Position numbers and translations under genes: made by a program. 29,207 bases of DNA, taken from positions 1 through 29,207 of the IMG/VR virus record IMGVR_UViG_3300035670_000995. One strand, given 5' to 3'. Shown in pieces: positions 67 to 29,196 of this stretch. This DNA is from a virus. The notes beneath the pieces are model-generated. The model was not told the DNA's origin. It did no database searches and saw only the letters and a program-made list of their open reading frames with translations. The stretch's first letter is position 1. Every line of letters begins with the position of its first letter.

Positions 67-597
67 TCATCGGGTCTGCGTGAGGCCCGGGTGGGGGGCT
101 CTCATCTTATGCTTGTCGCGTCTGGAATTAACGTGCGGGAAAAGTCCGCACGCGTCGCCGTTCACCGTCGCCCTGATCTGCCTCGCCCGCTTCTGCGTCC
201 AGATGTGCGAGCGCCCGTACATCTTCGCGATGGTGCGAGAGTCCAGGCATCCGGGCAGACTGAGCGCCCAGCGGATGAGCTCGACGTGACGACGGAAGGA
301 GAAGTTGTCGGAGCAGGCCAGCGCATCCATGAAGGCCTTGAGCATCACGCCGACATGATCGCGGGAGATGAACGCGTCGACCTCGATGCGTGCGCTGTCG
401 CCGTCCTTGGTCGCCCATGACGGATGATTGGGGTCGATGTCGAACACATGGCGTGACTGGACCATCTCGCGGTAAGGCAGCACGCCTTGCTCACGCATCT
501 TGTCCTGGACCTTCTTGGGCTGGGAGAAGAACCAAGCATCGAACGACTTGGCTTCCTTGGGCGGAGCCGTGAGGTCGTTGATGCTGGCCTTGGTCAC
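67..597 (-). CDS. putative helix-turn-helix DNA-binding protein
   Basis: I do not recognise the family. The 176-aa product (GTG start at 597) is mixed in composition, with a basic C-terminal third. The segment SRTIAKMYGRSHIWTQKRAR looks like a helix-turn-helix in a site-specific DNA-binding protein, and it is followed by a Lys/Arg-rich tail. No catalytic motif is visible. The open frame continues to a TTG at 639, only 4 bases after the preceding stop; that start would add 14 Pro/Leu-rich residues. On the circular map this is the last gene before the small terminase gene, so a role in switching on late transcription is possible but is inference from position. Confidence 0.65.
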   Translation of the reverse strand: MTKASINDLTAPPKEAKSFDAWFFSQPKKVQDKMREQGVLPYREMVQSRHVFDIDPNHPSWATKDGDSARIEVDAFISRDHVGVMLKAFMDALACSDNFSFRRHVELIRWALSLPGCLDSRTIAKMYGRSHIWTQKRARQIRATVNGDACGLFPHVNSRRDKHKMRAPHPGLTQTR

Positions 598-9569: not shown

Positions 9570-10691
9570 TCAGGCATTGTGGGAAAGGGTTGAGTCTACG
9601 ACGGCGATGCGTTCGCCGATCCAGCGCATGACCGGCACGGCCATGGAGTTTCCGCAGGCCTTATAGCGTGGGCCGTCTGGACATTCAGTCTCGGGCTTGC
9701 CTTTCCAGCTGATGCGCGACCAGTTGTCTGGGAAGCCTTGCAAGCGTTCGCACTCGATCGGCGTCAGGCGGCGTACGGCCATGGGCTGCACGGCAAGTGT
9801 TTCGCTGCCACCGCCGAGGTCGCCGCCATTCGCGCAAATGGTTCCGACGCCGTGAGCATACTGTCCGAAAGACGACGCCGTGAACGGGACGATTGGCAGG
9901 CCGCGCCCAGTCCCGTCCTCGCTGCCGTGGTAAGACTTCGTGAGACAATGCGTTGTGTCGCCAGTGGCGCAGACGGGCTGGAGCACCGCAGGGAAGCGGT
10001 TCTTCTCCGGCATGGTCTGGCCTTTCGCCAGCACCGCGTCGAGCGTCTGGCTCACTTGTCCTCCGTCCCACCAGCAGCCTGCCGTAGGGCCTGCTCCAGC
10101 ATTGGCGGAAGGGCCTTTCCTCTTTTTGTTGCCCGTCTCAAGATACCCGCGCAAGCCTTCGCGGAGAGATAGAACCTCTGCGGCAGCTCGCCAGTCTCCA
10201 AGACACGCGACAACGAAGACTCGACGACGGCGCTGGGGGACTCCGAAGTATTGAGCGTCCAGCACTCGGTAGGCGAACCCATACCCGAGTTCGACCAACG
10301 CCCCAAGGAAGGAACCAAAGTCCCGTCCTCCTCCCGATGACAGCACGCCAGGGACATTCTCCCAGACGATCCAGCGGGGCTTGAGTTTGTCAGCCAAGCC
10401 AAGAAAGGTGAGAGCGAGGTTGCCCCTGGGGTCGGCAAGTCCTTTGCGGAGTCCGGCGACGGAGAAGGACTGGCAAGGTGTGCCTCCGACCAGAAGGTCG
10501 ACTGCTCCGGGTTCGATTGGCCAGGATTGGTATACGGTGAGTGAGCCATAGTTAGGGATGTTAGGGAAGCGGTGTTGGAGGATAGCACAGGGGAAGGGTT
10601 CGATTTCGGAGAAGCCGACGGGAGTCCAGCCAAGCGGATGCCAAGCAACGGACGCGGCTTCCATGCCGGAGCAGACGGAGAGATAACGCAT
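9570..10691 (-). CDS. C5-cytosine DNA methyltransferase
   Basis: The 373-aa enzyme transfers a methyl group from SAM to C5 of cytosine in a specific DNA site. The motif order is classical. Motif I is LSVCSGMEAAS (4-14), motif IV has the catalytic Cys in GGTPCQSF (C73), motif VI is ENV (111-113), and motif VIII is QRRRR (153-157). A target-recognition region covers about 180-300. Motifs IX/X are RRLTPIECERLQGFPDNW (307-324) and YKACGNSMAVPV (343-354). No restriction endonuclease gene is next to it, so it is a solitary methyltransferase that could protect phage DNA from host restriction. The start at 10691 overlaps the stop of the HTH gene by one base (TAATG). Confidence 0.95.
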   Translation of the reverse strand: MRYLSVCSGMEAASVAWHPLGWTPVGFSEIEPFPCAILQHRFPNIPNYGSLTVYQSWPIEPGAVDLLVGGTPCQSFSVAGLRKGLADPRGNLALTFLGLADKLKPRWIVWENVPGVLSSGGGRDFGSFLGALVELGYGFAYRVLDAQYFGVPQRRRRVFVVACLGDWRAAAEVLSLREGLRGYLETGNKKRKGPSANAGAGPTAGCWWDGGQVSQTLDAVLAKGQTMPEKNRFPAVLQPVCATGDTTHCLTKSYHGSEDGTGRGLPIVPFTASSFGQYAHGVGTICANGGDLGGGSETLAVQPMAVRRLTPIECERLQGFPDNWSRISWKGKPETECPDGPRYKACGNSMAVPVMRWIGERIAVVDSTLSHNA

Positions 10692-10957
10692 TACTTCTGG
10701 CGGCGGTAAGGGCCGCGCTTCTTGACGTTGACCCACTGGGTGTTCGTGATGTCGAGCCACTGACGGAGGGTGCAGACGCTGGTGTCGAGGGCGGCGGCGG
10801 CATCGGCCTGAGTCTTGCCGGCGGCGTTGAGCGCGGCGATCTGCGGGAGGATGGCCTGCAGGCGACGGGCGGCGTATTCGGCCATCGGTCGCTTGAGGGG
10901 GATGGGTCGGCCGCAGAAGGTGAGCGACTCGACGAACGGGTGGTTGGCGTTGGGCAT
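10691..10957 (-). CDS. HTH protein coupled to the methyltransferase
   Basis: The 88-aa product has a clear helix-turn-helix: LPQIAALNAAGKTQADAAAA followed by LDTSVCTLRQWLDITN, with a basic C-terminal tail (KKRGPYRRQK). It is translationally coupled to the methyltransferase gene through a TAATG overlap. It could be a transcriptional regulator of this operon or a helper of DNA recognition. It is not a standard restriction-modification C-protein by sequence, so the pairing is inferred from position. Confidence 0.75.
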   Translation of the reverse strand: MPNANHPFVESLTFCGRPIPLKRPMAEYAARRLQAILPQIAALNAAGKTQADAAAALDTSVCTLRQWLDITNTQWVNVKKRGPYRRQK

Positions 10958-16474: not shown

Positions 16475-16483
16475 GGTCGGCGC

Positions 16484-16804
16484 TTAGACGGTGACGCTGT
16501 CGATGACGTTGACGCGGAAAATTTCGGTGCGGGAGATGCTCGAGGCGCTGAAGGCGAACTTGATGTCCCAGCGAGCCGTCCCGATGGCCCAGTTGCTGGT
16601 GTCGCCCGAGTAGACAACTGTGAAGGACAGTCCGTCCACCGCCTTGGTCACCGTCATGTCGTAGACGTTCATCTGGCGGTCCTCCAGGGAGGACGTGATG
16701 GTGGTCGTCGTAAGGTCGGCAGGGCCGGTCGCCCCGGGAGTCCAGGTGAACGTGCAGGCGAAGGTGTTGCCCCTCGAAAGCGTGACGGTGTTAGAGCAGC
16801 TCAT
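16484..16804 (-). CDS. BppU-like beta-sandwich tail protein
   Basis: The 106-aa product is beta-rich (TVTLSRGNTFACTFTW, then LSFTVVYSGDTSNWAIGTARWDIKF, then EIFRVNVIDSVTV). This order of strands, with the RG-TF start, the W-GTARWDI middle and the final RV-V, resembles the BppU/Ig-like N-terminal domains found beside phage fibre genes. It would link the fibre to the tail end. It lies 9 bases before the fibre gene and is preceded by the exact 16-bp element at 16816-16831. The assignment is by eye. Confidence 0.65.
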   Translation of the reverse strand: MSCSNTVTLSRGNTFACTFTWTPGATGPADLTTTTITSSLEDRQMNVYDMTVTKAVDGLSFTVVYSGDTSNWAIGTARWDIKFAFSASSISRTEIFRVNVIDSVTV

Positions 16805-16815
16805 CGGGTCTTAAC

Positions 16816-16831
16816 CTTGCCCCGATTGGAA
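16816..16831 (-). repeat. 16-bp intergenic element, copy 2
   Basis: The sequence cttgccccgattggaa (TTCCAATCGGGGCAAG in the direction of transcription) is identical to the copy at 26710-26725. Here it lies 11 bases before the ATG at 16804 and just after the stop of the previous gene. It may be a promoter part or a translation-initiation signal. Confidence 0.7.
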
Positions 16832-16839
16832 GGGTGGGG

Positions 16840-17394
16840 TCAGAAGGCCGTGAAGGTGTCAATGGCCGTCACCGAAGTGATCGCGTTGAAGCCGATGTTC
16901 TGGCCGTACCAAGGGGGGTAGGTCGCCGGGTTGTTCTCAAAGGCGTCCGAGGTGGTCGTGAACGTCCCCGATGAGTAGGTAACGGTCAGGCCGACGAGGG
17001 AGTCGGCGATGTCCGTCTCGTCGAGGTAGTTGTTTACGCTCGTGTAGTTCGGGTTCAGCGTGTCGTTGCCCGACCAGTCGTAGGCGCCGACGCTGAAGAA
17101 GGAGTCTGACACCCCTAGCCCGTTCTGGAAGCCGACGATGGGGCCGGAGTATTCGGTGTGGGAGGCGCTGCTGCTGTCCGTCCAAGAGGAGGTGGCAGGC
17201 CATTGGGCCACGCGCACGAACAACCCCTCGTCGGCGTGGAAGCCCGAGTCGATGGTCAGGTTGTGGGGTTGCGTCTGGACCGCGGCGTCCGTCTCGAACT
17301 GGTCATACGCTCCGATCAGGGCGCAGCGCAGTTTGCCCCAGGTCGAGTAGATACCCGCCGAGGCACCCGTCGACTGGCCGATGATTTCGCCCAT
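16840..17394 (-). CDS. tail structural protein of unknown function
   Basis: The 184-aa product starts at the ATG at 17394 (MGEIIGQSTGASAGIYSTWG), overlapping the preceding stop by one base (TGATG). It is rich in Ser, Thr, Asp, Asn and aromatic residues and is probably all-beta, as expected for a distal tail or baseplate protein. The open frame upstream of 17394 is shadow of the next gene. Gene order suggests the tail tip or hub, but I see no Dit/Tal hallmark. Confidence 0.7.
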   Translation of the reverse strand: MGEIIGQSTGASAGIYSTWGKLRCALIGAYDQFETDAAVQTQPHNLTIDSGFHADEGLFVRVAQWPATSSWTDSSSASHTEYSGPIVGFQNGLGVSDSFFSVGAYDWSGNDTLNPNYTSVNNYLDETDIADSLVGLTVTYSSGTFTTTSDAFENNPATYPPWYGQNIGFNAITSVTAIDTFTAF

Positions 17395-17960
17395 CAGATG
17401 CGGGCGTAGAAGTACTTGGCCGTGATGCCGGCGAGCTTGATGCGGTCGGACCAGAGGGAGCCGGTGACGTATTGGTTCACCGAGATGCTGGGGCCCGTGC
17501 CTTCGGTGGCGATGGCCAGCAGGACATAGCCGTAGGTGTCGGTGTCGGCCAGCGCCGTGTCGGAGCAGACGATACGCGGGTACTCGTCCTCGGTGTCCGT
17601 CTGCCCGGGGTAGGCTCCGCTGGTCTGGTCGACTCCTGCACGCAGGTAGATGTAGCACTGATGGGTCGTCGCGTCGAAGGGGGTCATCACGGACACAGGC
17701 CAGTCGGGAGCGCTCCCGCTGGTGCGGTCGAGTTTGACCCAGACCGAGTCCTCGTCGATCTGCGGGACTTCGTTGTTCAGCGTGCCAGGGACGACTTGGA
17801 ACAGCCATGCCGAGCCGGCCGTGTCGTAGACGACGTTGACCACCTTGAAGGGGTGGTTGTTCGGTTGGACTGACGGCGACGGAAAAGGGTCGGACGTGTC
17901 CAGCGTGAAGCCGTGCGCCGACGAGTCGAAGGTGTAGCCGACTCCGGGTTGGATCTTCAT
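17394..17960 (-). CDS. tail structural protein of unknown function
   Basis: The 188-aa product begins MKIQPGVGYTFDSSAHGF and is beta-rich with many aromatic and acidic residues. It is coupled by one-base TGATG overlaps to genes on both sides, so three distal tail genes (18796 to 16840) are made from one message. The lack of a signal peptide and the location between tape measure and fibre support a virion role. No named family is recognised. Confidence 0.7.
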   Translation of the reverse strand: MKIQPGVGYTFDSSAHGFTLDTSDPFPSPSVQPNNHPFKVVNVVYDTAGSAWLFQVVPGTLNNEVPQIDEDSVWVKLDRTSGSAPDWPVSVMTPFDATTHQCYIYLRAGVDQTSGAYPGQTDTEDEYPRIVCSDTALADTDTYGYVLLAIATEGTGPSISVNQYVTGSLWSDRIKLAGITAKYFYARI

Positions 17961-18796
17961 CAGGCCGAGGCGTAGACGGCGGAGGGGTAGCCGTCGCGGT
18001 TGAAGCGGATTTCGTAGTTCACCTTGTAAAGGCTTCCGAAGTCCTCGGTGCTAACCTGCGCAAGGAGAAGCTGGTTCTTGCTGCTGACCGTGAAGGTCGA
18101 ACCCATGTATGAAGGCAGAAGGTTGATGCTGTTAAAAGAGCTGGTTCCAGAAGTCTTGCCTACGCGTTCAATAAGCCCGGTGACGTGAGAGGACTGAGAC
18201 GTGTAGAAAAAGCCAGAGAAAGAAGTCTGCGGGGCGAGGTAGTTGGTCTTGCCGTAGAAGTCCTTGTATTGGGCGACCTTGAAGCCCTTGAAGCTCTTGC
18301 CGGACGCCTGCTCGAACGTGGCGCCGTTGTTGCCGACGTACTCCGTCGTATTGTTAGGACCAGGGGTGGAGGCGTAGACCGGGGCTGAGATGGTGCCCGT
18401 GCCAACGCCCGCGATGGGCGAGCCGGAGAAGCCCGTGGCGAGCTCGAAGAAGTTAGGGTGGGTCGTGATGTGCTCAGATGTCAGGCCTTGCGAGCCGGAG
18501 ACTTGCGGGTTCGTCCTCAGGCCGCTGTTCACATTAAGGTCAATCCCGACGTAATCCACCGTTAGGGTGGCGATGCCGAGGGCGTCGAATGTGGCGTTGT
18601 ACTTGTGCGCGTCGCACTGTGCATACTGTGCGATAGGGCAGGCCACTCCGCGACCTCCAAGCACGTCAAAGTCGTATGACTGATCTACCTTGAAGGTAGC
18701 CGTGACGGTAAGGAGCCCGTATCCGTCAGCGGACACTTTCGCCCCTGGTTGGTTAACCGGGCTTAGGAGGGTGTTGCCTGTTTCGATGCGTGCCAT
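17960..18796 (-). CDS. distal tail protein of unknown function
   Basis: The 278-aa product follows the tape measure gene by 3 bases, the usual place for a Dit-like or hub protein. It is beta-rich and Gly/Ser/Thr-rich (GYGLLTVTATFKVD near the start, FTVSSKNQLLLAQVS near the end). There are four cysteine codons, three of them in the first 65 residues. I cannot show homology to Dit/gpM or Tal/gpJ, so it is a candidate baseplate or tip protein by position only. GC content drops a little around 18050-18200. Confidence 0.7.
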   Translation of the reverse strand: MARIETGNTLLSPVNQPGAKVSADGYGLLTVTATFKVDQSYDFDVLGGRGVACPIAQYAQCDAHKYNATFDALGIATLTVDYVGIDLNVNSGLRTNPQVSGSQGLTSEHITTHPNFFELATGFSGSPIAGVGTGTISAPVYASTPGPNNTTEYVGNNGATFEQASGKSFKGFKVAQYKDFYGKTNYLAPQTSFSGFFYTSQSSHVTGLIERVGKTSGTSSFNSINLLPSYMGSTFTVSSKNQLLLAQVSTEDFGSLYKVNYEIRFNRDGYPSAVYASA

Positions 18797-18799
18797 GGT

Positions 18800-19555
18800 T
18801 TATTTGGAAGGGGTCTTAGTGAAGTCCTGTGATCCGAATGGATTTCGGTCTACAAGGTTCTGAAGGATGAGATTTGTCTTCTTGGTTTCTTCGAGCTGAG
18901 AAGTCATGGCTTCGAGCACCGGGTTCGGTCCGACGCCGATGACGTTTCCGAACCCTTCAGGGCCTTTGAAGTCCTTTTCCTTGTCTTTGAAAATTGGGGC
19001 AAACTTCTTTCCCTCTTCTGAGGCTAGGAATGTATCTAGCATTCGCTTTTGAAAGTCCTTGTTTCTATATAGAGCCTCATAGCTTGGCTGACCCATGCCC
19101 ATTGATTGCACGAGCATTCTGTTCGTACCTTCTGAAAGAAACTGACGCTGAGCTGCCGCGCCTTGTTCAGTAAGGGAAAAGTCCCTAGCCATCTTAATCA
19201 TACCAGCCTCGACGTCTTCGGCTTCTTTCTTATTTGCGGCCTTCATCTTGAGGAAGTTCGCAAGCCTAGTCTGTTCAGTGGTAGCAAGCTTTGTCTCGCC
19301 TTGCGCGATCAGGTCAAACCCTTCCTGAGCAGACCTTTTTGCGTCTTCAATGCTTTGCGAAATCAAGGAAACCAACTGATTGACGATTACCATCGGTGCT
19401 ACGAACCCAAGGGCGATATCTTTAAATGCCGTCGAGAACTTCTTTTTGATGTCATCAACCTGTTTGACCATTCCATCAGTCGCCTTCTTGGCCTTGTCCA
19501 TGGCCTGCGGGACATCGGAGTTGGTCTTGATGTTTACTTCAAGGGATTGGGCCAT
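18800..19555 (-). CDS. short tail tape measure protein
   Basis: The 251-aa product starts at the ATG at 19555 (MAQSLEVNIKTNSDVPQAMD). It is helical and charged, with one hydrophobic region (DIALGFVAPMVIVNQLVSLI, residues about 47-66) and long amphipathic helices after it. That pattern is typical of tape measure proteins, which set tail length and are ejected with the DNA. At about 0.15 nm per residue it predicts a tail near 38 nm, very short for a siphovirus. Base composition is clearly more A/T-rich than the head genes. It overlaps the chaperone gene by 17 bases; the open frame further upstream is shadow unless frameshifting occurs. Confidence 0.7.
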   Translation of the reverse strand: MAQSLEVNIKTNSDVPQAMDKAKKATDGMVKQVDDIKKKFSTAFKDIALGFVAPMVIVNQLVSLISQSIEDAKRSAQEGFDLIAQGETKLATTEQTRLANFLKMKAANKKEAEDVEAGMIKMARDFSLTEQGAAAQRQFLSEGTNRMLVQSMGMGQPSYEALYRNKDFQKRMLDTFLASEEGKKFAPIFKDKEKDFKGPEGFGNVIGVGPNPVLEAMTSQLEETKKTNLILQNLVDRNPFGSQDFTKTPSK

Positions 19556-20132
19556 CGGTCGTAGGGGGGCTTTCCTTTGCAGATTTGGAAGCGGCCTCCT
19601 TGGCCTCCTCTTCCGCCATGAAGGCCTCCTCCTCTGGGGACATGATCGCCACGTCCGCACCCTTGCGGATGGCCAAGGCCGAGTTAAGCCAGATGGCCTG
19701 ACACTCCGGCATCTCCCACGCCCGCTGTTCAGGGATGCCAGACGCGATGAGGTTCGCCACGATGCTTAGAGGCCACGGCACGCCCTTGTCCCCTCCGCCC
19801 TTGGTCTTGGTCTGCTCCCAGAACTTCGGCCAGTCCTGGACGAGGATGTAGCCGGCGAAGGCCTCGAGCAGCTTCTCGAACTTGGCCGGGTTGCGCTCAA
19901 GGCTCAAGATGCGGAGGCGGTCCTTCCAGCCGATGTCGCCCAGGGGTTCCTCGGCGCATACTTGGCAGGCGAAGATGAGGTCGGCAGGGGTGATGCCTCG
20001 GGAGCCCGTGACCAGCGGGGAGTCAAAGGCCATCAGGCGGACGCGGTACTTCAGGCACCACGGGTAAAGCACTCGACCCAGCAGCCGAAATGGCGCCGGG
20101 TCGATGTATGCGTTCAGGAAGCGACGATCCAC
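19539..20132 (-). CDS. tail assembly chaperone (gpG-like position)
   Basis: The 197-aa product (GTG start at 20132) lies between the tube and tape measure genes, the standard slot of tail assembly chaperones. It is mostly helical and ends in an acidic, Ala/Glu-rich tail (SPEEEAFMAEEEAKEAASKS), as in many chaperones that hold the tape measure before tube assembly. Many phages make a second, longer form by a frameshift near the end. Here the last codons contain a run of six C (AGC CCC CCT) where a +1 slip would enter the tape measure frame, but this is unproven. Confidence 0.65.
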   Translation of the reverse strand: MDRRFLNAYIDPAPFRLLGRVLYPWCLKYRVRLMAFDSPLVTGSRGITPADLIFACQVCAEEPLGDIGWKDRLRILSLERNPAKFEKLLEAFAGYILVQDWPKFWEQTKTKGGGDKGVPWPLSIVANLIASGIPEQRAWEMPECQAIWLNSALAIRKGADVAIMSPEEEAFMAEEEAKEAASKSAKESPPTTDGPIP

Positions 20133-20166
20133 TCCCTTGAGACTACTCCCCTTGCGGGGGTGTCAA

Positions 20167-20544
20167 TCAGGGCGTGATGCCTTCGTAGTCGACCGCGGTG
20201 ATGGTCACGGCGGTGAAGCCCTTGTTCGAGCCCTTGTCGTCGACCTTGGTGATCGTGCCGACGAAGGACGCGGAGGCGGAGCCGGAGGGGTAGGCCGAAG
20301 CGGTGTTGACCGTGAAGGTCAGGGTGGCGCCGAGGACGGGCATGGTCGCCGTCTTGGCGATGCCTTCGATGGTGATCTCCGTCTTGCGGTCGTCGTAGCG
20401 GGCCGTCTTCGTGATGCCCGACTCGTCGGCCACGGTGGCCTCGGCGTTGAAGGAGGCCGAGAGGCTGTAGCTCTGAACGAAGAGGTTGGTGACAGTACCC
20501 GCGACTCCGTAGATGCAGGTGGTTCCGGTATCGATGGCGGCCAT
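20167..20544 (-). CDS. tail tube (major tail) protein
   Basis: The 125-aa product starts MAAIDTGTTCIYGVAGTVTN and is almost wholly beta (TEITIEGIAKTATMPVLGAT, then FTAVTITAVDYEGITP), with the small size of short tube proteins. It would stack as rings along the tape measure to form the tail tube. Gene order (terminator, tube, chaperone, tape measure) is exactly that of lambda-like tails. It is expected to be abundant. The preceding leader is A/T-rich without an SD sequence (CAATTACAAATG). Confidence 0.75.
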   Translation of the reverse strand: MAAIDTGTTCIYGVAGTVTNLFVQSYSLSASFNAEATVADESGITKTARYDDRKTEITIEGIAKTATMPVLGATLTFTVNTASAYPSGSASASFVGTITKVDDKGSNKGFTAVTITAVDYEGITP

Positions 20545-20568
20545 TTGTAATTGCGGGGGTTGGAAACC

Positions 20569-21003
20569 TTACGCGGCGGGCAGGACGACAAGGATGTCGA
20601 AGGCGAAGGATGTCGCCCAGGAGCGCTCGTCGATGCCCTCGTCCTCGGAGGTCATGGTCACGTCGTAGCAGGACGCGTCACCGCCCGAGGTGAAGGCCGA
20701 CTGGATGCTGGTCAGGTCACGCATATTGCCGGACAGGGCGGCGCAGCGGAGCCGGTGATCGGCGAGGGTCGTGTCGTCGGCGTTGGAAAAGAGGGTGATG
20801 CGGACCGAGCAGGCGTAGTTGCCCAGCCCCTCGGGGAGGTCGCCAGGAGCCCGGGCCGAGTCGCAGAGGACGACGGCTTTGGGCAAGGTCTGGGTCACGG
20901 CGCTGTCGCCCGTCAGGAACTGCACGGTGGTCAGCCCGGTCTGGGTCGAGAGGTAGGTGGCAAGCGTTGCTTCCACGATGTGGCGGATGGATTTGGTGCC
21001 CAT
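20569..21003 (-). CDS. tail terminator protein (gpU-like)
   Basis: The 144-aa product has an N-terminal helix (SIRHIVEATLATYLSTQTGL) and strands (TLPKAVVLCDSA, YACSVRITLFSNA, TSFAFDILVVLPAA) in the order of gpU-type tail terminators. These cap the finished tail tube and join it to the head. It lies between the neck protein and the tube genes, as U does in lambda. Sequence similarity is weak; position and fold pattern carry the call. Confidence 0.7.
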   Translation of the reverse strand: MGTKSIRHIVEATLATYLSTQTGLTTVQFLTGDSAVTQTLPKAVVLCDSARAPGDLPEGLGNYACSVRITLFSNADDTTLADHRLRCAALSGNMRDLTSIQSAFTSGGDASCYDVTMTSEDEGIDERSWATSFAFDILVVLPAA

Positions 21004-21009
21004 AAAGGT

Positions 21010-21954
21010 TTAGCGGATTGAGCCGTTGTTGAAATCGACGACGTCGCGCTTGAGGAACTTCTCAAGGTCGCGCTCGATGCGGGCGACCGCGTTTCCGTAG
21101 ACAAGGTTCAGCACGTTGTTCTTCGTGGCCTTGTCGTCGTTGTCGCCGATCGTGTTGCCGATGCGGATGCTTACGGCTTTCTGCGTCGTGTAGACGGACT
21201 GAATGACGTTGCCGGGGAACTTCTTGACGTAGCCCGAGACGCCCTTGCGGCCGAAGTTCTGTTCGACCCCTTTCTTCTTCGGCTTAGGAAGGGACTGCAT
21301 GGCGTTCCACCAGCCGGCCTTCAGTTTGCCCACCTCGGCCTGACGCTCCTTGATGTAGGCCTTCAGCTCCGCCTTGGAGCCGACGAGGAACTTGCCCATG
21401 TAATCGCCGCGGCCTTTCTCAATCTTGGTCTTGCCCTGGCGGGTCAGTCGCTTGAAGCGGTTATGGATAGGGCGGAGGTCGGTGACGAGCTCGTTTCCCG
21501 GGCGTCCGCTGGATTGGTTGAAGAAGTTCTGGGCCTTCTGGTAGGCGCGCAGCACGTCGGAGTCCGCCACGATCTGATTGGGGATGACCGCGTCGAAGTT
21601 GATGGAGCGTTCCTGCGCTTGCTTCTTGGCCGTCGTGAAGTCGCCGAAGTTGCGGCGCTTGGCGGCCGAGGCGAGGTTGTTGAGCATCATCGCGCCTGCG
21701 ACCTTGGCCTTGTCGTTCTGGGCGACGAAGAGCGTGTTGATGTCACGCTCGACCGCACGGCGACCGACGAGCTCGGCCTGCTTGGTTTCGCCTCCGCCGC
21801 CCCCTGCCTTGAACGGAGGGGTGAAGACGATGGCGTCGCGGCACATCAGCGCGGCCTCGCGGAGGGCGGCGTACTCGATGGTCCAGCCGACCTCCTGGGC
21901 GAGGGAGGTTAGCGCCTTGTTGAAGGTCGTGACGTTGGCGTGGACGAGGCCCAC
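21010..21954 (-). CDS. neck/tail-completion protein (gpZ position)
   Basis: The 314-aa product (GTG start at 21954, one base after the preceding stop) is basic and helix-rich, beginning VGLVHANVTTFNKALTSLAQ. It has a Gly-rich loop (PPFKAGGGGGETK) and a highly basic middle. It occupies the place of lambda Z or HK97 gp10-like proteins that finish the tail top for head joining. The longer open frame to 22116 lies inside the neighbouring gene and is rejected. Length is larger than most gp10-like proteins (120-190 aa), so an extra domain may be present. Confidence 0.65.
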   Translation of the reverse strand: MGLVHANVTTFNKALTSLAQEVGWTIEYAALREAALMCRDAIVFTPPFKAGGGGGETKQAELVGRRAVERDINTLFVAQNDKAKVAGAMMLNNLASAAKRRNFGDFTTAKKQAQERSINFDAVIPNQIVADSDVLRAYQKAQNFFNQSSGRPGNELVTDLRPIHNRFKRLTRQGKTKIEKGRGDYMGKFLVGSKAELKAYIKERQAEVGKLKAGWWNAMQSLPKPKKKGVEQNFGRKGVSGYVKKFPGNVIQSVYTTQKAVSIRIGNTIGDNDDKATKNNVLNLVYGNAVARIERDLEKFLKRDVVDFNNGSIR

Positions 21955-21955
21955 G

Positions 21956-22333
21956 TTACTGGTTGTCGTCGATGACGACGAGGGTGATCCATGCCGACCC
22001 GGGCTTGTAGGTCTGGGTCGTGATACGGACTGTCTTCCCGCCGGCCACGATTTTCTTGCCCTGGGCGAGGGAGGCGATGGGCACCCCTCCGCTAAGGGTG
22101 GCCGCCGATGCCCCAATAGACCCGTCTGGCTGGCTCCAGGAGGCCGTTACGGCAGGCAGGCGGACAGTGTACTGGGTCCGCTCACAATACCCCCCCGCTT
22201 CGAGCACGGTCGATACGGCGGGGTCCGAGATGAGGCAGGAGAAGGTGATGGCCCCCGAGTTGGCCGACCCGGCCACGCCGAAGTCCGCGATCATCTCCTT
22301 CGCGTCCGCCAGAAACTCAGAGTAGAGGCTCAT
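21956..22333 (-). CDS. head-tail connector (FII-like position)
   Basis: The 125-aa product starts at the ATG at 22333 (MSLYSEFLADAKEMIADFGV), after the major capsid terminator. An N-terminal helix is followed by beta strands (AITFSCLISDPA, KIVAGGKTVRITTQTY, SAWITLVVIDDNQ), the fold pattern of lambda FII-like connector or stopper proteins. The frame upstream of 22333 overlaps the capsid gene and is rejected. A degenerate copy of the 16-bp intergenic element (22340-22356) lies 6 bases before the start. Confidence 0.6.
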   Translation of the reverse strand: MSLYSEFLADAKEMIADFGVAGSANSGAITFSCLISDPAVSTVLEAGGYCERTQYTVRLPAVTASWSQPDGSIGASAATLSGGVPIASLAQGKKIVAGGKTVRITTQTYKPGSAWITLVVIDDNQ

Positions 22334-22339
22334 CCTATA

Positions 22340-22356
22340 CTTGCCCGCTTTGGGAA
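22340..22356 (-). repeat. degenerate copy of the intergenic element
   Basis: In the direction of transcription this reads TTCCCAAAGCGGGCAAG, close to the exact 16-bp element TTCCAATCGGGGCAAG seen at two other sites. It lies between the capsid terminator and the ATG at 22333, so it could start transcription or translation of the connector genes. Confidence 0.45.
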
Positions 22357-22363
22357 CAGGGAC

Positions 22364-22391
22364 AAAAAAAGACCCCCATCGCTGGGGGTCT
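22364..22391 (-). terminator. strong intrinsic terminator after the major capsid gene
   Basis: In the minus-strand transcript an 8-bp perfect stem (AGACCCCC/GGGGGTCT, loop of 6) is followed immediately by seven U. It begins 21 bases after the capsid stop codon and would end most transcripts there, keeping capsid mRNA abundant relative to downstream tail genes. Confidence 0.9.
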
Positions 22392-22412
22392 CGTTCGAGC
22401 CTGTGGCCGCTA

Positions 22413-23285
22413 TTAGGCAGCGGTCTTGAGGCGGTGCAGGGAGGTCGCGCGACCGACAGCGGCACCGAAGAGCAGCGTGGCGGTGACGTTGTAGTAGCCC
22501 GACTGCTCCTGGCCCATGAGGACCTGGACGCCGAGGCCGGTGTCGGCGTCGACGGCGTTGGCGACTTCGAAGCCCGGGATTTCGGACATCGGGAGGGCCG
22601 AGGCGACGGCGATGGCGTCAGCGCCGCAGGCGAAGCCAGCGAGGTTTTCGCTGTTGTTCGGCAGGCTGTTCCACTGGTAGACCGCGGCGCCAGCGAGGGT
22701 GCCGATCTGGCCGGAGGTCAGGATGCCGGCACCGAGGACGGAGTTGCCGATGATGGTGGCGTCCGAGAGGAGTCCGTTCGCGTAGGTCGGGTTCAGGATG
22801 AACGCGCGGGGCTCGGCGGCCTTGGCGGCGTCGAGCACGCCCTTGGCGGTGACGACTTCGGCGTAGGTGAGCGCGGCGCCGGTGTCGACGTTCGAGCTGT
22901 AGTTGGCGTTCGTGATGAGGGCGCCGATTTCAGCGAGGCACTTTTCGGCGAGGGCGTTGGAGGCCGTCGGGACGAAGGCGTTCGCGAGGAACTGCGCGCC
23001 GTACATCTTCACGTCCAGAGGAGCGAAGCGGGACGACACCTTGAAGTGCTTCAGGGTGACGTTGGCGGCCGTGATGGTCGCGTCGTCCTGGGTGAGGTAG
23101 CCGCCCGTCGAGAACTCGGTGGCGGTGGAGGTGCCGATCAGCGGGACCTGGACGGTCTTGCCGGCGCCGGACTCGGCAGCGGTGAAGACGGACGAGAACG
23201 CGCGGAGGGCGGGGAGCTTGCCCTTGAGGGAAGCGATGACGCTTTCAGCGAGGATGCTGGGAGCGACTGCGATGGAGTTAGCCAT
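22413..23285 (-). CDS. major capsid protein
   Basis: The 290-aa product lies after the scaffold gene and just before a strong terminator, as expected for the most abundant virion protein. It begins MANSIAVAPSILAESVIASL and contains the loop TVQVPLIGTSTATEFSTGGY, which fits the N-arm/E-loop area of HK97-fold capsids, with SSRFAPLDVKMYG and PRAFILNPTYANGLL further on. The C-terminus returns to hydrophobic strands (VTATLLFGAAVGRATSLHRL). It is Ala/Gly-rich with even, GC-rich codon use. No separate decoration protein gene follows. The leader has no SD sequence (CCTAACACATCATG). Confidence 0.85.
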   Translation of the reverse strand: MANSIAVAPSILAESVIASLKGKLPALRAFSSVFTAAESGAGKTVQVPLIGTSTATEFSTGGYLTQDDATITAANVTLKHFKVSSRFAPLDVKMYGAQFLANAFVPTASNALAEKCLAEIGALITNANYSSNVDTGAALTYAEVVTAKGVLDAAKAAEPRAFILNPTYANGLLSDATIIGNSVLGAGILTSGQIGTLAGAAVYQWNSLPNNSENLAGFACGADAIAVASALPMSEIPGFEVANAVDADTGLGVQVLMGQEQSGYYNVTATLLFGAAVGRATSLHRLKTAA

Positions 23286-23318
23286 GATGTGTTAGGATAG
23301 GGTGAGGGTTGAGGGAAA

Positions 23319-24131
23319 TTAGAGGGCCGCCTTGATGATCGCGTGGCGGTTCGCGGCGAAGTAGTCGTTACGCTCCTTTGAGCCGACCGGGAGGGACATG
23401 AAGACGGCGAGATGGTCGACGGCCTCGGCGGACGGCTTGACGTCGGCAGGGCTGATTTCGACCGGGGCGACGCCCACGGAGGCCACGATCTTCGCGGCTT
23501 CCTTGGAGGCCGAAACCTTGGAGGCTTCGTGCTCGGCGACCAGCGCCTTCAGCGACTCGGACTCCTTGACGGCGACCTCGAGGGCGGCGGTCAGTTCGGC
23601 GAGCTTCGCATCCTTGGCGGCGGCTTCGACCTTGAGGGACTCGAGTTCGGCGGTGGCGCCGACGGTCATCTTCTCGATGGTGGAACGGAGGTCGTCGCGT
23701 TCGGCGGTCAGGCCGGAAAGAGCGGCGGTGGCTTCGAGCAGCTGTTCTTCGATGGTCATCTTGAGTTTGCGGAGGTTGGAAACTTTCGCGGACTGTTCGC
23801 GGTCGAGTTGTTCGACTTTACGCTCGGCCCATTCGGCCGTCCGCATGATGTCGCCGGAGGTCGGGCCACCCCAGAGAGCCCACGCCACGGCGCCTGCTCC
23901 TGGGAAGTCCTTGCCATCGGGCTTGTTGTTCGGGGCGTCCATGTCGCCTTCGTGACGGCGGAACCACGGACCCATGCGGCGGAGCTTGTCCTCGGACACC
24001 GAGCCGGCCGCCATCTCGCGGGCTTCGCGGATGGTCTTGTCCGTCACGCCGTCGCCCGACTTGCCCTCAGCGTGCCATTCAAGGCCGCGTCGGGCTGCTT
24101 CCTGCACGTAGTCGGGGACGCTGATCGCCAT
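23319..24131 (-). CDS. capsid scaffold with fused N-terminal phage domain
   Basis: The 270-aa product has two parts. Residues about 4-100 match a domain seen beside many phage structural genes: an ARRGLEWHAEG start, IREAREMAAGSVS, a middle RRMGPWFRRHEGD and AVAWALWGGPTSG. Residues about 104-220 are a long coiled coil (KVEQLDREQSAKVSNLRKLK to KESESLKALVAEHE), as in scaffolds that guide prohead assembly and are then cut by the protease. A helical C-terminus (SKERNDYFAANRHAIIKAAL) probably binds the capsid protein. It directly follows the protease gene with a one-base TGATG overlap. Confidence 0.75.
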   Translation of the reverse strand: MAISVPDYVQEAARRGLEWHAEGKSGDGVTDKTIREAREMAAGSVSEDKLRRMGPWFRRHEGDMDAPNNKPDGKDFPGAGAVAWALWGGPTSGDIMRTAEWAERKVEQLDREQSAKVSNLRKLKMTIEEQLLEATAALSGLTAERDDLRSTIEKMTVGATAELESLKVEAAAKDAKLAELTAALEVAVKESESLKALVAEHEASKVSASKEAAKIVASVGVAPVEISPADVKPSAEAVDHLAVFMSLPVGSKERNDYFAANRHAIIKAAL

Positions 24132-24916
24132 CAGAAGGTGCGGAGCGCTTCGTTGAAGGAGTCGGCCAGACCCGTGACGAGTCCCTGGGCGGCGGCCTGC
24201 TTGCCGGAGAAGACCTGACCTTCCATGGCCTCGGCCTTCACCATCTTGCGCTTCATGTTCACGGCTTCCTTGAACTCGGCGTGCACGGTGTCGACGCCTT
24301 CCTGGAGGTTGGCCATCTGGTTCTCATCGAGGCTCGTGCCTTCGATGCCGGCGCCCTTGAACTTGCCGGACTTGATGACGACCATCTTTATACCAGCCAT
24401 CTCGGCGGCCTTGGAGTAGTCGGGGATGGCCATGTAGACGCCGATGCTTCCGACAGTAGACGAGGGAGAGGCGACGACGCGGTCCGCAGCCGAGCCGATC
24501 CAGTAGGCGGCGGAGGCCATCTCGGAGTCAGTGTAGGCCAGCGTAGGCTTGCCGTAGTTACGCACCTTGTTGGCAAGTTCCTCGACGCCCGTGACCGTGC
24601 CGCCAGGGGAGGAGATTTGCAGCGCGACTTTCTCGACGTCAGGGTTCGCGGCGAACGCATCGAGGGCGGCGGACACTTCGTCGATGTCGGCCACACCCAT
24701 CATACGCTCAAGGGGCGAGACGCCCTTGCCAATCACGCCGACGATAGGCACGATGCCGATGCCGTCGACGACGTAGGGCTTGGGGGCCACGCCGAAGAGC
24801 TGCGCAAGCATCTCGGTGAAGCCGAACTTCTCGGCGAGGACGGCGTGGTCCTTGGCCTTGGCCGGGTCGATGAGGAGGGGCTCGCGGCCCGACAGTCCGT
24901 TGGTAAGGAAACGCAT
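24131..24916 (-). CDS. S49/SppA-like prohead protease (gpC-like)
   Basis: The 261-aa enzyme is a Ser-Lys protease of family S49, as in lambda gpC, which matures the prohead by cleaving scaffold and portal. The core is visible: SSPGGTVTGVEELANKVRNY (102-121), MASAAYWIGSAADRVVASP (133-151, with the likely nucleophile S135), SSTVGSIGVY (152-161) and VIKSGKFKGAG (180-190, with the likely general base Lys). It is compact, without the scaffold extension of lambda gpC, because the scaffold is encoded by a separate downstream gene. It lies 7 bases after the portal gene. Confidence 0.9.
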   Translation of the reverse strand: MRFLTNGLSGREPLLIDPAKAKDHAVLAEKFGFTEMLAQLFGVAPKPYVVDGIGIVPIVGVIGKGVSPLERMMGVADIDEVSAALDAFAANPDVEKVALQISSPGGTVTGVEELANKVRNYGKPTLAYTDSEMASAAYWIGSAADRVVASPSSTVGSIGVYMAIPDYSKAAEMAGIKMVVIKSGKFKGAGIEGTSLDENQMANLQEGVDTVHAEFKEAVNMKRKMVKAEAMEGQVFSGKQAAAQGLVTGLADSFNEALRTF

Positions 24917-24923
24917 GGTGAAG

Positions 24924-26444
24924 TTAGGAATTGGGTTCGTCGGTGGAGTCGGGTTCTTCGAGCTCGGCGGGTTCGTCTTCGGCCATCTCCGGGCTTTCCG
25001 ACTCGACCTCGCCGACGATCGTGCCGACAGGGGTGTTGGACGGACGGAACAGAAGTTCGAACGGGATGCCGTACTCTTCGGCGAGGTTCTTGATGTGAAC
25101 CATGTCGGCTGCGCGCTTCTGCATCTCGGTGCGGAAGTCGAGGCCGCGCTGGGCGTAGAGTTCGCTCATCGAGAGCAGACCCATCTCGACGTCGGCCCGG
25201 TCGTTCGCGGCTTCACGGCCTGCGTCGACGGTGACGGACTTCGGGGTCGTCCAGGAGACTTGGTTCCACTGAGGGTCGTCAGGCAGTTCTCCGGCGGCGA
25301 TGGCCTGCCCGATGATGTAGCCCCAGGTCGGGACGCAGAACTGCTCGATCAGGATGGTCTGATACTTGGAGAAGACTCGGCCAGCCTTGGCCGTGATGAG
25401 GCGGACGGTGGCTCCGCCGAGCTTGGAGGAGTCGCCGACGAACTCGTAGGGCAGGACGCCCATGGCGATGTCGCGTTCGAGCGCCGCAAGGAAGCCGGTG
25501 AAGGTGGCGTTCGGGCGGTTGCTCTGGAAGGACGTCATGTCCTCCCCGGGCTCGAGGGCGATGAGTTTGCCGCCCATCGTCGAGGCCACGTTGGCGTAGG
25601 ACGAGCCGTTGGCCGCGCCGAGTTCGCCGGCCATGTCGGAGTCGATGGTGCCGCCAGTCTTCTTAATGATGCGGGTCACGTCGCCGTTGTCCTTCACGGC
25701 CTGCTTCTCGAGGGCGAGGATTTCCATCTCGTCCTGGATGCTGTTGATGCTGTGCTGGAGAAGGGGAACCCCACGGGCGCCGGACGCGTACTCCTGGTCG
25801 ACAACCATCATCATGGACTGAGCCAAGATCTGACGGGACGAGCCGTCTGAGCGGTAGATGTTAACGGCGATGTATTCGCCATAGGGACCGAACTGGATGC
25901 CGTCGTGCATACCCTCGGGCACCTTGCCTTCGAGAGGGTCGCCGACGCGGTGGGCTTCCATCAGCTGGAGTTTGGCCTCGCCGTTGGCGTTACGCACCTT
26001 GGCGGCGAAGGAGTCGCCGTCGCGGATCATGCCACGCAGCAGGATGGACTGAGCCTGATAGAACGAGAAGCGGTTCGTGATGTCGATGCGCTTGGCCTTC
26101 TCCGCGAAGTAGGCCTCATAGGTCTGCTGCATCTCCGGCGTCGACGCGTGGCTCTGGGGCTTGATGCCATCGCCCACCGTGTAGAGGCACATATCCGCAA
26201 GGATCTGCTTGAAGAGGCCGGAGTTGCGCTCCGCCCAGCGGCACTTGCGGACCATCGCCAGACGGTCGTAGGGCGTCAGGTCGCGGCGGAGGTCGCGAGG
26301 CTCGGCGCCGTAGGCCGCACGGCGGGCACGGGTCACGCCGATGCTCTGCCAGTCGCCGTAGGAGGCCTGCGGCTTAGGTGCGGTCGGCGTCGCCTTCTTC
26401 GGGCGGAGGCTGACGGTCGGGACGGTCTTCTTGCGGGGTGCCAT
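24924..26444 (-). CDS. portal protein (lambda GpB family)
   Basis: The 506-aa protein forms the dodecameric portal through which DNA is packaged and ejected. It has the N-terminal signature of the lambda GpB/Phage_portal_2 family: TRARRAAYGAEPRDLRRDLT, then LAMVRKCRWAERNSGLFKQI and MIRDGDSFAAKV. A wing/stem region follows with KFLxG-like turns replaced by SMMMVVDQEYASGARGVPLL and a C-terminal acidic tail (ESPEMAEDEPAELEEPDS). Length is close to lambda gpB (533 aa). It is followed by the protease gene and preceded by the gpW-like gene, the lambda order. Confidence 0.93.
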   Translation of the reverse strand: MAPRKKTVPTVSLRPKKATPTAPKPQASYGDWQSIGVTRARRAAYGAEPRDLRRDLTPYDRLAMVRKCRWAERNSGLFKQILADMCLYTVGDGIKPQSHASTPEMQQTYEAYFAEKAKRIDITNRFSFYQAQSILLRGMIRDGDSFAAKVRNANGEAKLQLMEAHRVGDPLEGKVPEGMHDGIQFGPYGEYIAVNIYRSDGSSRQILAQSMMMVVDQEYASGARGVPLLQHSINSIQDEMEILALEKQAVKDNGDVTRIIKKTGGTIDSDMAGELGAANGSSYANVASTMGGKLIALEPGEDMTSFQSNRPNATFTGFLAALERDIAMGVLPYEFVGDSSKLGGATVRLITAKAGRVFSKYQTILIEQFCVPTWGYIIGQAIAAGELPDDPQWNQVSWTTPKSVTVDAGREAANDRADVEMGLLSMSELYAQRGLDFRTEMQKRAADMVHIKNLAEEYGIPFELLFRPSNTPVGTIVGEVESESPEMAEDEPAELEEPDSTDEPNS

Positions 26445-26450
26445 GGAAAG

Positions 26451-26705
26451 TTAGTCCTGGCGGTTCTGCCAGTCGGTCGAGATGACCGTCTTGCGGGCGC
26501 CGTAGGTCGCCGGGTCGAGGCGGCTCAGGGCGAACATGGCCTCCGCCAGCATCTCCTTGGGAGGCATCGCGAACTGCTTAGACGCGGACGAGCCCGAGTC
26601 CGAATAGGACATCAGGGTCTTGCCTTCGGTGATCATGGCGACCGCCTTGGCTTTGATGTCGAGGAGTTCGCACTCCGTAAGTCCGATGAAGAGTCCAGAG
26701 GCCAT
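26451..26705 (-). CDS. gpW-like head-tail joining protein
   Basis: The 84-aa product fits lambda gpW in size, position (between the large terminase and portal genes) and sequence pattern: two helices flanking a beta hairpin, with MITEGKTLMSYSDSGSSA in the middle. gpW seals the head after packaging and allows tail attachment. The start at 26705 lies only 4 bases after the 16-bp intergenic element and about 20 bases after a terminator, so its expression is probably set separately from the terminases. Confidence 0.88.
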   Translation of the reverse strand: MASGLFIGLTECELLDIKAKAVAMITEGKTLMSYSDSGSSASKQFAMPPKEMLAEAMFALSRLDPATYGARKTVISTDWQNRQD

Positions 26706-26709
26706 TTAT

Positions 26710-26725
26710 CTTGCCCCGATTGGAA
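26710..26725 (-). repeat. 16-bp intergenic element, copy 1
   Basis: In the direction of transcription the sequence TTCCAATCGGGGCAAG lies 4 bases before the gpW start codon and just after the T-run of a terminator. It is identical to the copy at 16816-16831. A 16-base exact match between two intergenic sites is very unlikely by chance in 29 kb. Confidence 0.7.
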
Positions 26726-26794
26726 TAAAAAGGGGGTTAGCCGCCCAGCCCACGCCACAAGCTTCTTCCTCCTGCGACACTAAACGGCTAACCC
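26726..26794 (-). terminator. intrinsic terminator between large terminase and gpW genes
   Basis: In the minus-strand transcript the arms GGGTTAGCCG (26794-26785) and CGGCTAACCC (26743-26734) form a perfect 10-bp stem around a 41-base loop, followed by CCTTTTTA. The T-run is good, and the large loop may fold further. It would lower read-through from the terminase genes into the structural genes. Confidence 0.65.
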
Positions 26795-26815
26795 TTGAGG
26801 AAAGTCTGCCCACGT

Positions 26816-28603
26816 CTAGGACGGTTGCAAGTCGGTTTCGGCGGTTTCCCTACCGGCGATACCCCAGCGGACGGCGGCCAGAAGGGCGAGGATTTCGCAG
26901 TCCATGGCGTGGTTGTCCCGTTTGCCCTGCGGGAGTATCCACTGAGGTTTGCCCGTGCGTTTATCCTTTACGCGCACCTCGGCGCTCAGCTGAGATACAT
27001 ACTCCTCGGTAGCATCTACCCCATAGGTCCAGACGCGGCGAGCCCGCAGGCCGTGGAGCAGATCCTTGCCGGCAGTGGCACTATGCACGATGAGCGTCGC
27101 CCGTTGCGGGATGCCTGGGACGACGATGAACTGCTTCTCCGAGTAGAAGCGGCGGGTCGTGTTGCCGGACTTGTCCGTGACCGCGAAGTCGTCCGAGCCC
27201 GACCCCTTGGCCGTCTTCCAGTTGCGCTTGGCCGTCTCGCGGTAGACCTCCTGCGTGTTGTCGCCTGAGTCGACGAGGACAAGCGCATGGTGCACGCCGT
27301 GCTGTTTGGCGAAGGCCTCCACGTTGCCCCAAGAGTCTATGCGGGCGAAGGCCATCAGGCGGCTATGCCCGGTCTTCGCCCACCTACGGACAGTGACCCA
27401 GAAGTGACCGCGCTGGACGTCCACGCCCATCGTGCGGAAAGGGATGCTCCCCGGCACGGCGTCCTTCTGGTCGACGACGCGGGCCTTCGGCGTGATCGCG
27501 GCCTCCGCATCCCATGCGTCCGACATCTTGTAGTTGGCGGCCTCCGCAAGGCTGACCATCTCTCCGCCCTCTTCGCTCCAGGGCATGGCGAGCCGCTTCT
27601 GCTTGAAGATGCGCCTAGGCTCCTCGTCCCCATATTGGTCCGCCGACTCCTTGGCCTTGAGCATCAGCACGCCGAGCTCGCCCCAGCTCATCGATGCAAG
27701 GCTGTTCCAATGCAGGCCTATGTGCCCGGAGTTGGCCGATACCGACGTGGCGACGAACGTCCCCTTGGCGTTGGCCTCCAGACGCGTGGCGTTATTGTCG
27801 GGCAGGAGCGCACGGCAGGACGCACACTCGTACGTCGTGCCCACGCTGACCTTGTGCAGATCCCATGTACCCGTCGACTTCGCGTCCTCGGGGAACCTGA
27901 TCTGCTCCCAGACCCAAGGCTGGAGATGGTCGCACTTCGGGCAACGGAAGTTCCAGTCGCGCTGGTCCGTAGACTCGTGCAGCTGATGGAACTCGTCCCC
28001 TGCCCGTCCTCCCTGCGACATGAAGATGCGCTTGCCCATCCAGCCGAACGCCGTGACGCGCGCGCTCAGTTCGGCGAGGTGTCCAGCCGGAGCCATCCAG
28101 CACTCGTCGGCGATGGTGTAACGCAGGGACAGGCGCTGAAGGTTCGCCTCGTTCCAGATGCCTCGGCAGTAGAGGGTCATGCGGTCGAAGTCCGTCGTCG
28201 TCGAGCGGTCGAGGTCGTCGGCCGAGATGCGTGCCTTGACAGGTGGACAGTTGTTCCAGACCGGGCGGAGGTAACGCAGGGCGAAGTCCTTGGCCTCTGG
28301 GTCAGTAGCCTGGAGAACCATCGTAGGGCCGGGAGCGTTCGCCACGATGTGGCACGTCAGCAGGCGGGCGAACAGGGACTTCCCCGATTGGATGCTCGCA
28401 AGGACAGTCAGGAGTTTGGTCTCGGGGTCTGCGGCTATCCTCAAGGCCTCCGCGATCCACGGAGTTCGTTCCGAACGGAAAGGCCCGGGCATCGGCGAGT
28501 CGGGGATGGCGAGCACGTTGGACTCCAGCCATTCGACGATGTCACCCGAGTCCGACGGACGCAGCACGTCCCGACCGATGCGGAGCAGGTCAGCCTTGTT
28601 CAT
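26816..28603 (-). CDS. terL: large terminase subunit (lambda GpA family)
   Basis: The 595-aa protein is the packaging motor and nuclease. The ATPase has a GpA-type Walker A variant ASIQSGKSLF (69-78), Walker B YTIADECWM (162-170) and a coupling segment MSQGGRAGDEF. A four-cysteine zinc knuckle (CPKC at 221-224 and CASC at 260-263) separates it from the nuclease domain, whose acidic residues include D395 in MGVDVQRGHFWV and D445/D448 in LVLVDSGDNT. Lambda gpA is 641 aa. GpA-type terminases cut at cos or at specific sites, which fits the short terminal repeats of this window. Its start overlaps the small-subunit gene by 14 bases. Confidence 0.95.
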   Translation of the reverse strand: MNKADLLRIGRDVLRPSDSGDIVEWLESNVLAIPDSPMPGPFRSERTPWIAEALRIAADPETKLLTVLASIQSGKSLFARLLTCHIVANAPGPTMVLQATDPEAKDFALRYLRPVWNNCPPVKARISADDLDRSTTTDFDRMTLYCRGIWNEANLQRLSLRYTIADECWMAPAGHLAELSARVTAFGWMGKRIFMSQGGRAGDEFHQLHESTDQRDWNFRCPKCDHLQPWVWEQIRFPEDAKSTGTWDLHKVSVGTTYECASCRALLPDNNATRLEANAKGTFVATSVSANSGHIGLHWNSLASMSWGELGVLMLKAKESADQYGDEEPRRIFKQKRLAMPWSEEGGEMVSLAEAANYKMSDAWDAEAAITPKARVVDQKDAVPGSIPFRTMGVDVQRGHFWVTVRRWAKTGHSRLMAFARIDSWGNVEAFAKQHGVHHALVLVDSGDNTQEVYRETAKRNWKTAKGSGSDDFAVTDKSGNTTRRFYSEKQFIVVPGIPQRATLIVHSATAGKDLLHGLRARRVWTYGVDATEEYVSQLSAEVRVKDKRTGKPQWILPQGKRDNHAMDCEILALLAAVRWGIAGRETAETDLQPS

Positions 28604-29144
28604 CGGATGAGAGGTCGGCCTTCACGCGGCGCACCCAAGCCTCGAGCACCTTGACCGCCTTGGCCGGGTTCTCGGGGTTACATCCTTCTGCCACGTCCAG
28701 GGCGAGTTTGTCCAGGCGGTTCACGATCCGCGCCGCCATCTCCCGCATCGCTTCGCCGGCTTCCTTCGCGGAGATGTAATCCTTAGCAAGGATAAGCCGA
28801 CGCTCCTGCTCCTCCTCGAGCGCGACCAGCGTCTTCAGTGATTGGTTGTACGCGGTCTGGTACTTCCCCTGGTTGGGGTCGCCCCCTTCCATCGCGGCCT
28901 GCCAGACTCCTCGGGCACGACTTACCAGCGTGCGGTGTTCCGCGATCGTGTCGGCCAGCGTCCCGTCGTCGAGTTGCGCCGGTGCGGCCTTCGGCGCCGC
29001 GGCACGTTGCACGTTGGCCCGGGCTTCCCGCCATGCCTTCGCCGCGTCGATGCTGTCGGTCGGCATACCTTCCCTACGCAGGACGCTGATGCGTTGCGCG
29101 GTGACGCCGAGCGCCAAACCCAGTTCTGAGTTCGTCAAAGCCAT
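28590..29144 (-). CDS. terS: small terminase subunit (Nu1-like)
   Basis: The 184-aa protein begins with a helix-turn-helix (NSELGLALGVTAQRISVLRR, residues 6-25) like lambda Nu1, which recognises the packaging site. A linker follows, then a helical oligomerisation region (YNQSLKTLVALEEEQERRLI) and an acidic C-terminal part that would contact the large subunit. It lies directly before the large terminase gene, overlapping it by 14 bases. The ATG at 29144 has an A/T-rich leader (GGTTTAACAAACC) with no SD sequence. It is the first gene after the end junction on the circular map. Confidence 0.85.
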   Translation of the reverse strand: MALTNSELGLALGVTAQRISVLRREGMPTDSIDAAKAWREARANVQRAAAPKAAPAQLDDGTLADTIAEHRTLVSRARGVWQAAMEGGDPNQGKYQTAYNQSLKTLVALEEEQERRLILAKDYISAKEAGEAMREMAARIVNRLDKLALDVAEGCNPENPAKAVKVLEAWVRRVKADLSSDEQG

Positions 29145-29196
29145 GGTTTGTTAAACCGCCTCTTTTTGCCCACGGGTCTTGTAAAAAAGAGCCGTG
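29145..29196. other. non-coding leader of the packaging operon
   Basis: This leader lies in front of the small terminase gene. It contains an imperfect hairpin on either strand (arms at 29171-29180 and 29187-29196 with one mismatch) and a six-base A-run (29183-29188). On the circular map it continues into 1-66. It probably holds the late promoter, the packaging site, or both; I cannot place promoter boxes. Confidence 0.5.

Follow-up and report, generated by a model that had tools for sequence, protein, structure and literature searches.

The window analysed here, IMG/VR record IMGVR_UViG_3300035670_000995 at its full length of 29,207 nt, is a 29.2-kb phage record in which all called genes lie on the minus strand, the gene caller having been run on that strand only. 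The recognised proteins are a TerL of the GpA type, a lambda-type portal, an S49 head protease and a major head protein. For TerL the best E-value of the list was obtained with P8625, a cultured phage of Verrucomicrobia (6e-33, at 24% identity); for the portal the best annotated match was Akkermansia phage Moulinsart. A close portal was found in three public MAG contigs, each of them assigned to Verrucomicrobiota/Opitutae, and the putative hosts very probably belong there. The genes inspected in the window have no Shine-Dalgarno sites, in agreement with reports that Verrucomicrobia are SD-scarce (PMC10783764). Many independent contigs start at one and the same base upstream of terS (terL then starts at base 605), others stop soon after the gene at 67-597, and one record consists of about 28.2 kb followed by a repeat of its own start. 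From these shared start and end points the phage genome seems to have defined ends. An inverted repeat, GTATCTGTAGGGG...CCCCTACAAGATAC, is located at 1076-1109 upstream of the gene region 644-1069 and is a possible operator or terminator.

A sequence-only reading of the window had reported a 16-bp element occurring exactly in front of a gpW-like and a BppU-like gene, with a degenerate copy in front of a connector gene. The gene names are supported only in part. Family searches gave no match for the gpW-like protein, the sole match of the 'BppU-like' protein was PHROG 1084 (E 1.7e-5), the function of which is not known, and the connector matched the head closure protein Hc1 weakly (E 0.045). 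A scaffold-like gene with its start at 23759 is nested in frame within the ORF 24131-23319. This ORF is an in-frame fusion of two genes that are separated by a stop codon in many relatives; the fused form, with an internal start that keeps its element, is reminiscent of the nested protease/scaffold arrangement of lambda.

A search of the window recovered the exact 16-mer TTCCAATCGGGGCAAG at both places reported, 16831-16816 and 26725-26710 of the minus strand. No third site was found in the window within three mismatches, and two or more such matches occurred in 3 of 100 shuffles. Two exact copies by themselves are weak evidence, so that relatives were needed. The looser copy TTCCCAAAGCGGGCAAG in front of the connector-like gene was likewise present, at 22356-22340. 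Its distance to the start codon at 22333 is 6 nt and those of the exact copies are 4 nt (start at 26705) and 11 nt (start at 16804), in line with the 4-11 bases given earlier. All three copies are real but the number was an undercount, since further copies precede the starts at 23759, 20544 and 19555. With the relaxed pattern YCCAW-N5-GCAW-N4-A five matches were obtained in the window, all on the gene strand and each just before a late-gene start; the chance expectation was 0.20, and a count of five was reached in none of 100 shuffles. The sixth copy (19572-19590) has a spacer that is shorter by one base. Judged from these matches, the unit is a looser bipartite element of about 20 nt at six window sites and not the 16-mer, which is the best-conserved and strongest form of TTCCAW-N5-GCAW-N4-A.

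All six copies are on the minus strand. The copy of the gpW-like gene occupies 26706..26725 (TTCCAATCGGGGCAAGATAA) and that of the scaffold-like gene 23762..23781 (TTCCAACCTCCGCAAACTCA), directly before the internal start that gives MTIEEQ... as N-terminus. At the connector-like gene the element spans 22336..22356 (TTCCCAAAGCGGGCAAGTATA), and in relatives it takes the form CTACCAATCCGGGCAAGTATAGG-ATG. The gene 20167-20544 is preceded by TTCCAACCCCCGCAATTACA at 20546..20565. The copy with the shorter spacer, TTCCAAATCTGCAAAGGAA at 19572..19590, belongs to the ATG at 19555 and sits within the 3' end of the upstream gene. The 'BppU-like' gene has TTCCAATCGGGGCAAGGTTA at 16812..16831. This last copy is directly preceded by a C tract (16832-16845; about C6-C11 in most relatives) that varies in length, possibly by slippage.

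Related contigs of IMG/VR, with DNA identities reaching down to about 70%, were used to examine conservation. Of 526 distinct sequences upstream of the same seven late gene starts, 463 had the core, as against 4 of 851 at all other starts of the same loci, counts in which the sequences share descent and many of the 16804 loci had been fetched with the 16-mer itself. Expressed per gene, it was found in every distinct upstream sequence at 26705 (64/64), 22333 (51/51), 19555 (81/81) and 16804 (90/90), and in nearly all at 23759 (64/70) and 20544 (82/85). At the gene starting at 21003 it was found in 31 of 85, and there the element occurred only if no upstream stop codon lay 1-6 nt away (31 sequences with the element, 54 without), the upstream gene having apparently been swapped only a few times, which makes the effective sample small. 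A scan of IMG/VR with the exact 16-mer gave at least 118 matching stretches, and nearly all of the matches listed and read precede either one and the same tail gene, at a distance of 10-11 nt, or the gpW-like gene, at 4 nt. At the latter gene all 64 distinct upstream sequences of relatives fit CTTCCA[AT]TN4GCA[AT].., and in relatives selected by their portal TTCCA and GCA are kept around a varying middle (cggg, ctcg, ggtc, gtcc), which again argues that the 16-mer is not the unit.

Orthologous upstream regions from ten genomes displayed the same arrangement before other late genes too. A pattern-free search for conserved pairs of 4-mers ranked CCAA...GCAA at the top, in 5 of 30 gene groups. 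The motif was neither frequent within genes nor missing from the same sites in relatives, two findings that the sequence-only reading had named as speaking against its proposal: each genome had 3-6 matches to TTCCA[AT]N3-7GCAA on the sense strand, almost all of them ahead of starts, and 0-1 on the antisense strand. The core was absent from the early genes of the window phage and the related contigs, among them some nine with uncoupled starts. No start-associated copies were seen among the matches inspected in putative-host and related Opitutae genomes; these matches were inside genes or in phage contigs, and use of the motif by the host was rejected. As far as these comparisons go, hundreds of related verrucomicrobial viruses have retained the element.

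The seven sites were aligned on GCA, a trinucleotide that formed part of the search pattern used for the alignment. The first block, TTCC/A, is followed by a spacer that is rich in G+C and constant in length except at 19590, where it is one base shorter, and the 3' part consists of GCA, A or T, three free positions, a position that is mostly a pyrimidine, and then A. This final A is conserved in 98% of the sequences at a fixed distance from GCA. Start codons lie 0-17 nt downstream of this A and in no case before it; most often 1-3 nt separate the A from the ATG, and in four distinct sequences the final A is the A of the ATG itself. The distance from GCA to the ATG is 8-11 nt at five genes in nearly all sequences; counted from the G of GCA it is 16-25 nt at 19555 and 14-16 nt at 16804. 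The two conserved blocks are separated by 5 nt and lie about one helical turn from each other. Sequence comparison thus establishes the element, the set of genes, the single orientation, the fixed internal spacing, and the absence at early starts and at the host starts examined.

Two of the copies had been described as following a terminator. This is clear for the connector-like gene, where a GC-rich hairpin with a 10 bp stem and a T run (22369..22392, minus strand) forms an intrinsic terminator behind the gene of the major head protein; it is kept in relatives and lies directly upstream of the element at 22336-22356. On the gpW side there is no clear terminator, and the T run of the hairpin in that interval is not kept in relatives. 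This 61-nt hairpin (26734..26794, minus strand, between terL and the gpW-like gene) has an outer stem of 10-11 bp and an inner stem of 8 bp. In 44 of 44 distinct relatives all 10 outer positions pair, a single position showing up to 5 pair types. The eight pairs of the inner stem covary as well and include retained G-U pairs, an indication that the structure forms in RNA of the gene strand. The loop is purine-rich (AGGAAG), and no Rfam match was found for the hairpin.

The distribution suggests that the element is probably an on-switch or a translation start signal for virus-particle building. The proposal of an undescribed promoter or SD-independent translation signal is thereby supported, with neither alternative singled out by the sequence. 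The reading that we prefer, to which we give a little less than an even chance, is that of a compact late promoter from which transcripts would begin at or near the final A. The two blocks, at roughly -19 to -6, would be recognised by an initiation factor that either is the phage's own or has been modified by it, transcription would start at the conserved final A or within a few bases of it, and the late mRNAs would be leaderless or carry a leader of a few bases. Such short or absent leaders would suit a genome whose genes lack Shine-Dalgarno sites. One argument for a promoter is that the final A is fixed to GCA while the ATG moves 0-17 nt downstream, and the 14-25 nt between GCA and the start at 19555 and 16804 are ill-suited to a ribosome site. 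The copy at 22336-22356 is squeezed between the conserved terminator and the gene, in the mere 35 nt or so that separate the terminator from the ATG, which also favours a promoter, as does the precedent of P8625, in which TTGACA is found 30 nt before four starts in a leaderless geometry. Early genes start without the element, so that translation without SD sites has no general need of it. On the assumption that the upstream regions are transcribed, a predicted unpaired fraction of 0.45-0.49 was obtained for the starts at 26705, 22333 and 16804, against 0.44 for random and 0.62 for early starts; being about as structured as random sequence, these three were counted in favour of the promoter.

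Several observations count against a promoter. No -35/-10 pair and no sigma-70-like promoter was found in 16000-29207, the region of the element is GC-rich where a sigma-70 promoter would melt, and a sigma-70 or sigma-54 promoter was rejected on spacing (sigma-70 hexamers are 16-18 nt apart, the two blocks 5 nt). The proteins scanned included no recognisable polymerase or sigma factor; a search of four genomes for PF00940 (T7-type polymerase) gave no match, but neither did its control search. From the final A to the ATG there are usually 1-3 nt and not 0, and the 8-11 nt between GCA and the ATG at five genes would equally suit a translation signal. The broader proposal, a class of late promoters with contacts at about -19 to +1, without -35/-10 and served by an unrecognised phage factor or polymerase, that gives leaderless mRNAs and is widespread in verrucomicrobial phages, appears rather unlikely to us.

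The main rival is a signal in the mRNA for translation initiation or translational control, to which the ribosome or an RNA-binding protein of the phage would attach and so set the translation of late genes, in the manner of the Start-Associated Sequences (SAS) of Cluster K mycobacteriophages or a RegA-type operator. It is a serious possibility, although we hold it to be less probable than not. The element occurs on the sense strand only and always ahead of a start codon, its distance to the ATG is nearly constant at the five genes mentioned, and SAS provides a precedent (PMC3203893). The restriction of the element at 21003 to upstream sequences without a nearby stop codon also hints at translation. 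The variable distances at 19555 and 16804, the attachment of the final A to GCA rather than to the ATG, the three sites that are not open in the predicted RNA and the nine or so early genes with uncoupled starts that do without the element all weigh against this reading. It also meets the difficulty that there is no Shine-Dalgarno core: the consensus has no GGAGG that could pair with an assumed CCUCC of the 16S tail 4-12 nt before the start, and a few variants have AAAGGA. Pairing with the 16S tail is unlikely given the variable spacer and the A/T alternation, and hairpins within the motif (CCCC/GGGG, TGCC/GGCA, CGGG/CCCG) were discarded as they are lost in some relatives.

The remaining explanations fit less of the data. 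Two blocks one helical turn apart around a free spacer would also be expected of a 20-bp DNA operator, bound by a phage repressor or activator that times late genes transcribed from other promoters, and proteins that might bind it are encoded at 10691-10957 (a small HTH protein) and 67-597 (a conserved protein beside the genome end). We regard an operator as improbable, however, since no promoter is visible near the sites, the site is asymmetric, and an operator would have no requirement to sit within 17 nt of every ATG. Cleavage by an endonuclease before the conserved A, yielding near-leaderless late mRNAs, would account for the pyrimidine at that position in most sites; it is slightly more doubtful still because at two sites the preceding base is often A, a recognition block 19 nt upstream would be unusual, and there is no candidate nuclease. 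The nearly invariant copy at 16816-16831, between hypervariable tail genes, brings to mind a recombination linker, a short identical block kept as a point of module exchange. The spacer of the other copies diverges freely while both blocks stay, in a conserved gene order, which weakens this explanation, and the copies are always start-associated and in one orientation; we consider it very unlikely. That the element is a functionless chance repeat might be argued from the two exact copies, which are only weakly surprising, but this least probable of the explanations is refuted by the upstream counts and the shuffles of the window.

Two proteins are candidate regulators. The conserved 176-aa protein next to the genome end (67..597, minus strand) has a C-terminus that looks HTH-like by eye, and its gene precedes terS once the map is drawn as a circle or concatemer, a position that resembles that of late regulators in other phages; it may be a late regulator. 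No significant family or fold match was found for it, and a sigma-like fold was not retained: the model was of low confidence (pLDDT 66) and had no significant match, several of the insignificant ones being sigma factors. The second candidate is an 88-aa HTH protein (10691..10957, minus strand) that matches HTH_23 with an E of 2e-4, below the curated cut-off.

This phage group is common in IMG/VR, with hundreds of contigs, and very probably infects Verrucomicrobia, in which to our knowledge almost nothing is known of phage gene regulation. The element offers a sequence handle on late-gene switching or on translation where Shine-Dalgarno sites are missing, and it predicts exact 5' ends. It also marks true gene starts, including the nested scaffold-like start that was overlooked by ORF callers.

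Late promoters of T4 (TATAAATA) and class III promoters of T7 are placed as several promoters before structural genes. Like them, the element is a short promoter-like unit that stands, in one orientation, ahead of each of a number of structural genes. Its sequence and geometry differ, and neither a polymerase of the T7 type nor a sigma resembling T4 gp55 was recognised. Akkermansia phage Moulinsart (ON453896) has another repeated start sequence, AAAGAGACGGCGGGGAA, at 2785 and 4640 before late genes and in looser form at 468, 10607 and 15314; these late genes include the one after terL. Start-associated elements of this kind may be common in verrucomicrobial phages. No description of the element or of a matching signal was found in the literature searched. 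The closest described thing is SAS of the Cluster K mycobacteriophages, a short asymmetric repeat before a subset of starts whose function is unproven (PMC3203893). Both are asymmetric repeats that occur in one orientation a few nt before the starts of a conserved subset of genes, and both are absent from the host and from other phages. SAS (GGGATAGGAGCCC), however, contains a Shine-Dalgarno core that pairs with 16S rRNA and precedes non-structural genes, whereas TTCCAW-N5-GCAW-N4-A has no AGGAG core and precedes only late structural genes, in phages of another phylum. By its sequence, missing SD core and gene class the element is thus not a member of SAS.

In P8625 (NC_029047), a distant relative by its TerL (24% identity), TTGACA ends exactly 30 nt before the starts at 5448, 10772, 15594 and 22442, and at three of these four sites it is followed by N17 and TATTGG or TATCTG. 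That strand holds 14 TTGACA, and for 52 genes some 0.02 would be expected at any one offset. These four sites are apparent leaderless sigma-70 promoters of a cultured Opitutae phage. P8625 and the window phage thus have in common an element at a fixed distance from late start codons, which in P8625 is the sigma-70-like TTGACA-N17-TATTGG while the element of the window has no visible -35/-10.
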